NCBI GenBank assembly: GCA_947462925.1
Contig: CANHQP010000001.1
Span: 62,001-126,000 of the forward strand
From: Flavobacteriia bacterium
GTDB taxonomy: Bacteria; Bacteroidota; Bacteroidia; Flavobacteriales_D; Crocinitomicaceae
DNA length: 64,000 nt
Direction: 5' to 3'
Position numbers and translations under genes: made by a program. Under the pieces are notes generated by a model. The model did not search any database and was not told the origin of the DNA. It was given only the letters and a program-made list of their open reading frames with translations. Shown one piece after another: positions 12,451 through 63,864 of this stretch (position 1 is the stretch's first letter; each line of letters starts with the position of its first letter).

Positions 12451-12523
12451 TGATCCGGCTGGGATTCGAACCCAGGACCCATACATTAAAAGTGTATTGC
12501 TCTACCAGCTGAGCTACCGAATC
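12451..12523 (-). tRNA. tRNA-Lys (TTT anticodon)
   Basis: The 73-nt minus-strand sequence folds as a full cloverleaf: acceptor stem GATTCGG / CCGGATC, D-arm with AGCTCAGCTGGTAGAGC, anticodon loop with TTT flanked by C and AA, and the T-arm GGGTTCGAATCCC. The discriminator base is A and CCA is not encoded. It has its own -7 box at 12566-12573. Confidence 0.95.
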
Positions 12524-16267: not shown

Positions 16268-18091
16268 TTATTTTCCTTCTCCTTCTTCCATTGTTTTTTT
16301 CAATGCAGATAAAGCATCTAAATCACCCAAAGTAGATTTCTCAGAGTTTGAGTTGATTGCTTTCACAGCTTGAGAAGTTGCGCTACCAGCTCCAGCGTTA
16401 CCACCTTTCTTAGCACCAGCTTTTCCTGCTGCAGTAGATGCTGCAGTTGGACGATCTTCACCTTCTTCAAAAGTACGTGTATGAGAAACAACAATTTTCT
16501 TAGAATCTTTATTGAATTCAATTACTTTGAAATCTAAAGTTTCTTCAACTTTCGCGTTTGATCCGTCTTCTTTCTTCAAATGTTTAGAAGGACAAATACC
16601 CTCAACACCGTAAGGAAGAGAAACGATTCCCGCTTTGTCTTTCGTTTCGATGATAGTACCTTGGTGTACAGAACCTTCTCCGAAGATAGTTTCAAACACT
16701 TCCCATGGATTCTCTTCCAATTGTTTGTGTCCTAAAGAAATACGACGATTTTCACGATCGATTTCCAATACAACAACTTCCATTTCGTCTCCTACTTTGC
16801 AGAATTCTGATGGATGTTTGATTTTTTTCTGCCAAGAGAGGTCAGAAATATGAATCAATCCGTCAACACCTTCTTCCAATTCAACGAAAACTCCGAAGTT
16901 AGTGAAGTTACGAACTTTCGCATTGTGACGAGTTGCAACAGCATATTTAGCTTCGATAGCTTCCCATGGATCTGGCATTAATTGTTTGATACCAAGAGAC
17001 ATTTTTCTTTCTTCTCTATCCAAAGTTAAGATAACCGCTTCAACAGTATCACCAACGTTCATGAAATCTTGAGCAGAACGCAAATGTTGTGACCAGCTCA
17101 TTTCTGAAACGTGAATCAATCCTTCTACACCAGCAGCGATTTCAACGAAAGCACCGTAATCAGCCATTACAACAACTTTTCCAGAAACTTTGTCACCAAC
17201 ATTTAAGTCTGTGTTCAAAGCATCCCATGGATGAGCTTGCAATTGTTTTAAACCAAGAGCGATACGTTTTTTGTCGTCATCAAAATCAAGAATTACTACA
17301 TTCAATTTTTGATCCAACTCAACGATTTCTTCTGGATGATTTACACGACCCCAAGAAAGATCTGTAATGTGAATCAAACCGTCAACACCACCTAAATCGA
17401 TGAATACACCATAAGATGTGATGTTTTTAACAGTTCCTTCCAATACTTGACCTTTTTCAAGACCTGAAATAATTTGTTTTTTCTGTTCTTCCAACTCAGC
17501 TTCAATAAGCGCTTTGTGAGAAACAACCACGTTACGGAATTCTTGGTTGATTTTAACCACTTTGAACTCCATGTTTTTACCAACGTAAATATCGTAATCA
17601 CGAATTGGTTTAACATCGATTTGAGAACCTGGTAAGAAAGCTTCAATTCCGAAAACATCCACAATTAAACCTCCTTTAGTTCTGCATTTCACATAACCAG
17701 TGATTACTTCACCTGTACGCAATACATCGTTTACACGAATCCATGCTTTGTGCATACGTGCAGTACGGTGAGAAATAACCAATTGTCCAGTTTTGTCTTC
17801 TTGACACTCAACGTAAACGTCAACTTTGTCTCCAACTTTCAAATCTGGATTGTAACGGAATTCACTAACTGGAACAACTCCTTCAGATTTGTATCCAACG
17901 TTAATAACCGCTTCTCTTTTTGTCAATACAACAACAGTTCCTTCAATAACTTCTTTTTCGTTAATAGAAGACAAAGTTGCTTCGTACTTGTCAGCAAGTT
18001 CTGCTCTTTGAATTTTGTTGTACCCGTCCATTGCGAGTGCATCCCAATCAAAATCGGCAGTTCCCTGCCCTGTAATTTTTGTTTCAGCCAT
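16268..18091 (-). CDS. rpsA: 30S ribosomal protein S1
   Basis: 607 residues with six S1 (OB-fold) RNA-binding repeats, which bind mRNA and deliver it to the 30S subunit. The most regular copies have the pattern GVFIDLGGVDGLIHITDLSW, GAFVEIAAGVEGLIHVSEMSW and GVFVELEEGVDGLIHISDLSW (residues about 240-470), each followed by a KRIALGLKQL-like end. The first copies (about 50-200) are more divergent, as in other S1 proteins that bind the ribosome by them. After residue 545 comes a low-complexity Ala/Gly/Lys tail, then a short acidic-basic end. In Bacteroidota, which rarely use Shine-Dalgarno pairing, S1 is expected to be central to initiation. The leader contains two competing pairings (see 18119-18177). 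Confidence 0.96.
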   Translation of the reverse strand: MAETKITGQGTADFDWDALAMDGYNKIQRAELADKYEATLSSINEKEVIEGTVVVLTKREAVINVGYKSEGVVPVSEFRYNPDLKVGDKVDVYVECQEDKTGQLVISHRTARMHKAWIRVNDVLRTGEVITGYVKCRTKGGLIVDVFGIEAFLPGSQIDVKPIRDYDIYVGKNMEFKVVKINQEFRNVVVSHKALIEAELEEQKKQIISGLEKGQVLEGTVKNITSYGVFIDLGGVDGLIHITDLSWGRVNHPEEIVELDQKLNVVILDFDDDKKRIALGLKQLQAHPWDALNTDLNVGDKVSGKVVVMADYGAFVEIAAGVEGLIHVSEMSWSQHLRSAQDFMNVGDTVEAVILTLDREERKMSLGIKQLMPDPWEAIEAKYAVATRHNAKVRNFTNFGVFVELEEGVDGLIHISDLSWQKKIKHPSEFCKVGDEMEVVVLEIDRENRRISLGHKQLEENPWEVFETIFGEGSVHQGTIIETKDKAGIVSLPYGVEGICPSKHLKKEDGSNAKVEETLDFKVIEFNKDSKKIVVSHTRTFEEGEDRPTAASTAAGKAGAKKGGNAGAGSATSQAVKAINSNSEKSTLGDLDALSALKKTMEEGEGK

Positions 18092-18118
18092 TTGGCGTTT
18101 TTAAATTGTATTTCGAAG

Positions 18119-18177
18119 AATTCCAGTACTTTCGAAAGAAGTTAAAAATAAAACTGTCCAAACTGGAATTGACAGTT
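18119..18177 (-). promoter_or_regulatory. Structured rpsA leader with two competing pairings
   Basis: In the minus-strand transcript, AACTGTC (18177-18171) pairs with GACAGTT (18158-18152), closing a 12-nt loop. Nine nucleotides of that loop, AATTCCAGT (18170-18162), are perfectly complementary to ACTGGAATT (18127-18119), which lies 28 nt before the rpsA ATG. The two pairings could be mutually exclusive or form a pseudoknot. A palindrome CTTTCGAAAG sits just upstream of the 3' arm. This is the layout of an autoregulatory leader; no known family was recognised. Confidence 0.6.
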
Positions 18178-18193
18178 CTCTTAATTTAGGGTG

Positions 18194-18201
18194 CAAAGGT
18201 A
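18194..18201 (-). promoter_or_regulatory. -7 promoter box for rpsA
   Basis: Minus-strand TACCTTTG matches TAnnTTTG, with TTTG at 18220-18217 as a possible -33 element. It predicts a transcript start near 18187 and a leader of about 95 nt that begins just before the structured element. Confidence 0.65.
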
Positions 18202-63156: not shown

Positions 63157-63555
63157 GGGGTCGTATTGGATTTGACAGCAGATGCGATTGTCAAGTGTAA
63201 GCATGTAGAGCGTTGAGGTGGAGCTCTTTAATATCCTGTCTCAAACTATAATTGACAACACGTCATACGCACTTGCTGCTTAATTAACTGAATGTTAATT
63301 GGCTTAATCTCGGTGAAGTTTAGTAGCCCTGACAAGTACTTTCTTCAGAACTCTGCCCATTAGTTCTGATTTACGAGAGTTCATCCTTTTGGGCTAGTTG
63401 GAGTGACGGTTCTAAGCTCCTGCGAAATCTCAGAGCATAAGTTGTGGATTTGGGTGTTCCTGTCCGTCCCACAATCGAAAAACAACCAGGAAATAAACAT
63501 GTAGAAAGCTTGCTGATTCTTTGTTTGGACGAGGGTTCGATCCCCTCCGACTCCA
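63157..63555 (+). ncRNA. ssrA: tmRNA
   Basis: About 399 nt. The 5' end GGGGTCG pairs with CGACTCC at the 3' end, with discriminator A; the T-arm is GAGGGTTCGATCCCCTC and CCA is not encoded. The tag reading frame ends at TAA (63281-63283) and gives (...)DNTSYALAA, the usual ALAA proteolysis tail. Pseudoknots are presumed but were not folded. tmRNA with SmpB releases stalled ribosomes and tags the unfinished protein for degradation. Integrase-bearing DNA begins after it. Confidence 0.9.
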
Positions 63556-63864
63556 CAATTTTTAAAGCCATTCGTATCAACACGAGTGGCTTTTTGGGTA
63601 AATAGCCCTAAATTTAAGGGGTTTACGAATTTTACTCCTTTCAGAAAACTACCTACAAATAGAAATAAAATCAAATAAATACTAAAATCATTGCTAGCAA
63701 ATCAGCTAGTAGTTTTTTTTTCAATTTTGCTAGCTAATAACGCGTAAACAATTGTAAAGCAATAATTTACTTTAAATTAAATTTGTGCTTTTTTGTTGCG
63801 TTTTATTGGATTTTGATACGTTTTAAAGTCGCTTTTGACACAAAATTTATTAAAAAATGAAAGT
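63556..63864. other. tmRNA-integrase junction
   Basis: About 310 bp between tmRNA and the recombinase gene, without a gene. Several GCTAGC palindromes (63694-63740 area: TTGCTAGCAAAT, CAGCTAG, TTTTGCTAGCTAA) lie here, a possible arm-site or hairpin set for the integrase. The attachment core itself would be in or next to the tmRNA 3' end. Confidence 0.45.
63564..63595 (+). terminator. Terminator of tmRNA
   Basis: 12-bp stem AAAGCCATTCGT / ACGAGTGGCTTT (63564-63575 with 63582-63593, one G-T pair) followed by T residues, 8 bp after the tmRNA 3' end. Confidence 0.8.

Follow-up and report, generated by a model that had tools for sequence, protein, structure and literature searches.

Ribosomal protein S1 of E. 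coli specifically represses its own mRNA, rpsA. The initiation region of this mRNA is folded in a conserved way and lacks a canonical Shine-Dalgarno (SD) sequence, and the control is a competition between free and 30S-bound S1 (PMC10931766). Pseudoknots are high-affinity targets of S1 (PMC10931766), and the ribosomes of Bacteroidia leave the SD unused for most genes (PMC9976891). Because Bacteroidota do without SD pairing, S1 is a prime candidate for delivery of mRNA to their ribosomes, and we found no description in the literature of how the S1 gene is regulated in this phylum. S1 is a protein with little sequence preference. Here we analyze the rpsA leader in a window of 64,000 nt of DNA from a Flavobacteriia bacterium of the Crocinitomicaceae, and find a conserved RNA structure that forms on the mRNA strand and is linked exclusively to rpsA. 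Like its E. coli (gamma-proteobacterial) counterpart, this leader precedes the same gene, is structured without a canonical SD and has AU-rich single strands, and initiation is likewise expected to depend on S1 (PMC10931766). The E. coli fold, compared here by its description only, is not described as a kissing complex (PMC10931766), whereas the Bacteroidota element combines a loop-loop helix between two hairpins with a UACAA anchor. Feedback by S1 has been demonstrated for E. coli rpsA, and we infer it for the Bacteroidota leader, which, if this holds, would be analogous to the E. coli rpsA operator but structurally unlike it.

The Flavobacteria leaders of S4, S15, S16 and L19 (Eckert and Weinberg, 2020) likewise precede ribosomal protein genes of this phylum and are specific to particular lineages, but the text of that report contains no rpsA (bS1) leader and neither of the words pseudoknot and kissing (PMC7247131). 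In E. coli tisB, a standby pseudoknot in the 5' UTR is needed for binding of 30S and S1 (PMC7708055); however, tisB is an unrelated gene, its pseudoknot lies far from the sequestered ribosome-binding site, and it serves as a translation activator and not as a feedback operator. The rpsU gene of F. johnsoniae provides a case of autogenous control of a small-subunit protein (bS21) in SD-blind Bacteroidia (PMC9976891), but there control uses an extended SD and ribosomes lacking bS21, with no structured leader, and initiation is largely bS1-independent. In a single locus (L300:1180-1255), Flavo-1 RNA (RF01705) ends about 85 nt short of the rpsA promoter box; it is a separate small RNA that does not overlap the leader. 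In Rfam release 15, which includes Flavo-1, no family scored above its gathering threshold over any leader tested and only weak chance matches were returned; a known RNA family was therefore rejected as the identity of the leader. Elsewhere in the window, Rfam located a tmRNA (63157-63558, plus strand) and a tRNA (12451-12523, minus strand). A full-text literature search on rpsA leaders, with subscription papers outside its coverage, returned no paper describing this one. The kissing-hairpin rpsA leader is thus very probably a new RNA control element, and it is probably S1 that would use it to keep its own synthesis in check.

The rpsA product of the window was identified as bS1 by the NCBIfam equivalog NF004953 (30S ribosomal protein S1; 909 bits compared to a cut-off of 720) and by six PF00575 stretches. 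The gene and the parts of its leader are as follows.

18194..18201, minus strand: -7 promoter box TACCTTTG, of the Bacteroidota TAnnTTTG type, from the sequence and from relatives
18150..18179, minus strand: P1 hairpin, arms AGAACUGUC (18179-18171) and GACAGUUUU (18158-18150), with 12-nt loop AAUUCCAGUUUG
18162..18170, minus strand: 5' strand of the kissing helix, AAUUCCAGU, inside the P1 loop; perfect 9-bp complement
18138..18149, minus strand: AU-rich, single-stranded linker AUUUUUAACUUC, 12 nt, from the consensus of non-redundant leaders
18111..18137, minus strand: P3 hairpin, arms UUUCGAA (18137-18131) and UUCGAAA (18117-18111), with 13-nt loop
18119..18127, minus strand: 3' strand of the kissing helix, ACUGGAAUU, inside the P3 loop
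18106..18110, minus strand: UACAA, abutting P3 on its 3' side, from alignments A2-A5
18092..18105, minus strand: A/U-rich spacer to the AUG, 14 nt, unpaired, without Shine-Dalgarno
16268..18091, minus strand: rpsA, ribosomal protein bS1, 607 aa, six S1 domains, by NCBIfam and Pfam

A defined fold without a canonical SD, as in E. coli, was thus found in this leader. The -7 box is equivalently placed in the leaders of relatives (median of 57 nt before P3), and the rpsA transcript is expected to start at about 18190-18184, as predicted from the box. Because the box lies upstream of P1, and in the same place in relatives, the expected transcript includes both hairpins. Among non-redundant leaders, the linker has the family consensus uuaA.c immediately 5' of P3, and UACAA, which is invariant in model alignments A2-A5, has the consensus AUACAA. 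The spacer is 10-17 nt long in most relatives. The 3' end of P3, at UACAA, lies about 19 nt before the AUG, which would be the upstream edge of the expected 30S footprint.

A preliminary description of this leader had noted a perfect 7-bp hairpin with nine loop nucleotides complementary to a segment 28 nt before the start codon. Both features were recovered on the minus strand. P1 is a perfect 7-bp helix (AACUGUC/GACAGUU) that extends to 9 bp with outer G-U and A-U pairs, and its loop segment AAUUCCAGU matches ACUGGAAUU perfectly (9/9), with the last base of the loop-loop pairing 28 nt upstream of the start codon, whose A is at 18091. The preliminary description had overlooked P3, the second perfect 7-bp hairpin, whose loop holds ACUGGAAUU. 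The kissing-hairpin structure has a combined stacking score of -36.4 kcal/mol in the window, which was matched by none of 1000 dinucleotide shuffles of the leader (mean -17.7, s.d. 3.5, best -27.9). The signal from the nested fold is weak (z -1.4), because the loop-loop helix cannot be represented in a nested structure; searches for nested structures miss this leader because its decisive helix is a pseudoknot. A linker-spacer helix in the nested minimum-energy fold was rejected for lack of conservation (z +2.2). The loop-loop helix is compatible with both P1 and P3, and the leader almost certainly adopts a kissing-hairpin fold. Two exclusive states had also been proposed, in which the anti-segment is either hidden in a hairpin or engaged in a long pairing. 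This proposal was not supported, since the complement sits in the loop of the conserved hairpin P3 and all three helices can co-form; the presence of both kissing strands in conserved hairpin loops leads us to reject a two-state switch as the main picture.

Each of the 20 close genomes searched gave an rpsA match, full-length in 19 of them. Further leaders came from 80 named GTDB loci and from about 140 loci sampled by order and class. Among the named loci, the nearest kin of the window include Fluviicola, Brumimicrobium and Crocinitomix, which makes the window a Crocinitomicaceae-like member of Flavobacteriales. By eye, the same layout of box, P1, UUAA(C) linker, P3, UACAA, spacer of about 14 nt and AUG recurs almost throughout the window's order. 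An optional extra promoter-proximal hairpin (e.g. CCAAUUU...AAAUUGG) is found 5' of P1 in L009, L044, L046-L048 and L054. The MAG records L033, L039 and L045, titled Chitinophaga pinensis, Sphingomonadales and Chryseobacterium gleum, contain Crocinitomicaceae-like rpsA genes and leaders and are probably mislabelled.

Covariation of the two loops was assessed with hairpins that were chosen blind. Among hairpins that end at [UC]ACAA the best was taken as P3, and the best one upstream of it was taken as P1; because kissing was ignored in this choice, circularity was avoided. In 79 leaders less than 75% identical, native loop pairs had a mean score of -9.09 compared to -4.53 (s.d. 0.22) for loops swapped between species (z -21.2; 0 of 20000 permutations). 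The same comparison gave z -13.6 in an earlier set of 33 leaders. A first swap test had taken the whole upstream region, which diluted the signal, and loop-only tests were used instead. In the joint structure, loop-loop kissing extends over at least 5 bp in 71 of the 79 leaders, with 70 different strand sequences among the 71 and 92% Watson-Crick pairs, and at least one loop is wholly consumed by kissing in 23 of the 71. Thus, the rpsA leader shows the properties of a kissing loop, namely two hairpins, complementary loops and loop-loop covariation. Shuffles of each leader, scored by stacking only, gave median z values of -2.3 in the window's order, -3.7 in the group f65, -1.0 in the mixed named set and -0.7 in other orders; this score is weak for single leaders and separates groups rather than individual cases.

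The stems were evaluated in A7, a model-fitted alignment of 74 distinct rows that leans toward the structure; in it, 97.3% of stem cells are paired and 10 of 11 pairs show double changes. The covariation score was 0.771, compared to 0.227 in shuffled alignments and at most 0.147 with slid partners. Both hairpins contribute: 94.4% of cells are paired in P1, with double changes in all 5 modelled pairs, and 99.3% in P3, with double changes in 5 of 6 pairs. The columns of P3 are anchored by UACAA and are gapless in element-padded alignments that predate any model. MAFFT misplaced P1 in diverged leaders, and element-wise padding and model realignment were therefore used. Among stem cells that are not Watson-Crick, 52 are G-U and 5 are A-C, and this excess implies that the functional strand is the rpsA mRNA. 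Covariation in relatives had been set beforehand as the test of the preliminary description, and it was found by a wide margin in the stems and in the loop-loop helix.

We also determined where the structure occurs. Covariance model R2 found a single site in the window's own genome and likewise a single site in each of 16 relatives out of 20, in every case immediately upstream of rpsA. A class-wide draw of 148 genomes yielded 7 sites, all 7 at rpsA, and these included four families outside the window's order. One site per genome, always at rpsA, is the restriction to the regulated gene seen in ribosomal protein leaders. A second genomic site in G138, returned by model R1, was rejected, as it falls in an apparent protein-coding stretch on the other strand. 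The reach of R2 is limited because the model cannot use the kissing helix, and absent matches are therefore no evidence of loss. Some leaders of the class lack UACAA and still have a kissing pair (e.g. L226, L249 and L255). The kissing fold is present upstream of rpsA across much of Bacteroidota, in the window's order and in other Bacteroidia orders, with almost none of its sequence preserved. A structured rpsA leader near the start codon, as originally noted, is thus conserved and covarying in relatives and specific to this gene, and its confinement to rpsA makes S1 autoregulation the leading idea.

In f65, a large family that comprises many dozens of genera and is probably Flavobacteriaceae (one member has a uS2 almost identical to a chain in a solved ribosome), the rpsA leaders (L287-L316) are larger, with P1 of the form CCUUUU...AAAGG and P3 of the form CUUCUG...CAGAAUACAA. 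These leaders have two loop-loop helices in crossing order, e.g. AGCGA/UCGCU and CAGGAA/UUCCUG, which exceeded swapped loops with z -5.3 (0 of 20000) and z -3.1 (35 of 20000), respectively. Some members have an additional hairpin between UACAA and the AUG. The rpsA leaders of Bacteroidales, including Bacteroides, are short and have another conserved box and no kissing fold. This box, resembling AAUGUCUAAC or of the type AACATAATGTCTAACTTATTAA, was found with a loose pattern in 29 of 43 Bacteroidales leaders (loci among L063-L110) and is possibly a different S1 site. Because the kissing fold is missing from Bacteroidales, any S1 autoregulation in this order must use another element.

The element ends at a near-fixed distance from the AUG and leaves the start site open. 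A scan between P3 and the AUG found no terminator in the leader, the only terminator-like hairpin (5 bp) being inside the coding region, and a transcription attenuator was rejected for this reason. Together, the fixed position relative to the AUG and the lack of a terminator point to translation initiation. We consider it probable that the leader is an autogenous translational operator of bS1, and S1 itself is its likely ligand. The 5' leader of rpsA mRNA folds into P1 and P3, locked by the kissing helix. According to this model, in bacteria with SD-blind ribosomes, initiation on it would depend on contact of S1 with this complex and with the AU-rich single strands on its flanks. When S1 is in excess of ribosomes, free S1 would sit at that site and keep the 30S subunit out; alternatively, free S1 may keep the kissing complex closed. 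We infer S1 binding, repression and competition with the 30S subunit from the E. coli precedent and the leader structure, and the simplest reading is an S1 operator that doubles as a landing site for ribosome-bound S1.

The main alternative is that the kissing complex is a standby site or enhancer that recruits ribosome-bound S1 for strong SD-free translation, with no feedback by free S1. We regard this alternative as rather unlikely, although it has a precedent in E. coli tisB mRNA, where a pseudoknot is required for binding of 30S and S1 and for standby-mediated translation (PMC7708055), and is consistent with the location of the element just upstream of the 30S footprint and with the unpaired, A/U-rich spacer. 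However, a general enhancer would be expected at other highly expressed genes, whereas model matches are confined to rpsA, and gene-specific feedback leaders are common on other ribosomal protein genes. A lower probability attaches to the idea that the leader does not sense S1 but another ribosomal protein (uS2, for instance), a metabolite, temperature or an RNA chaperone, or that its only effect is on mRNA stability. Cooperation of uS2 and S1 in the control of E. coli rpsB (PMC10931766) lends this idea some support, but the leader is associated with rpsA alone and has little conserved sequence beyond UACAA and the UUAA(C) linker. The leader alignments also showed nothing like the large, conserved, unpaired core that is typical of metabolite aptamers. 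A chance hairpin and complement, or a DNA inverted repeat bound by a transcription factor, is highly improbable in spite of the AT-rich leader and a nested-fold z of only -1.4, being refuted by the shuffles (0 of 1000), the loop swaps (z -21), the excess of G-U over A-C (52:5) and the position downstream of the promoter box.

Returning to the S1 operator, we lean, by a little less than for the window's leader itself, toward a bS1-sensing leader class that is widespread in Bacteroidota, in which the kissing complex would be recognized by its shape and AU-rich flanks while the loop letters drift; it would be doubled in f65, replaced by a short box in Bacteroidales, and set the supply of S1 without SD. 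A drifting sequence with a kept loop-loop contact would explain how S1 singles out its own message. If this reading is true, the class would be the means by which S1 supply is set through feedback in a phylum that does without Shine-Dalgarno pairing. For F. johnsoniae, S1 has been purified and reporter plasmids exist (PMC9976891), and these make the leader directly testable. The S1 proteins themselves vary at the N terminus: extensions of up to about 170 residues occur in members of several families of the window's order, for example L010, L012, L018, L149 and L189. The three read over their whole length (L010, L012 and L018) are rich in Lys, Ala and Glu, and the S1 of the window has no such extension.
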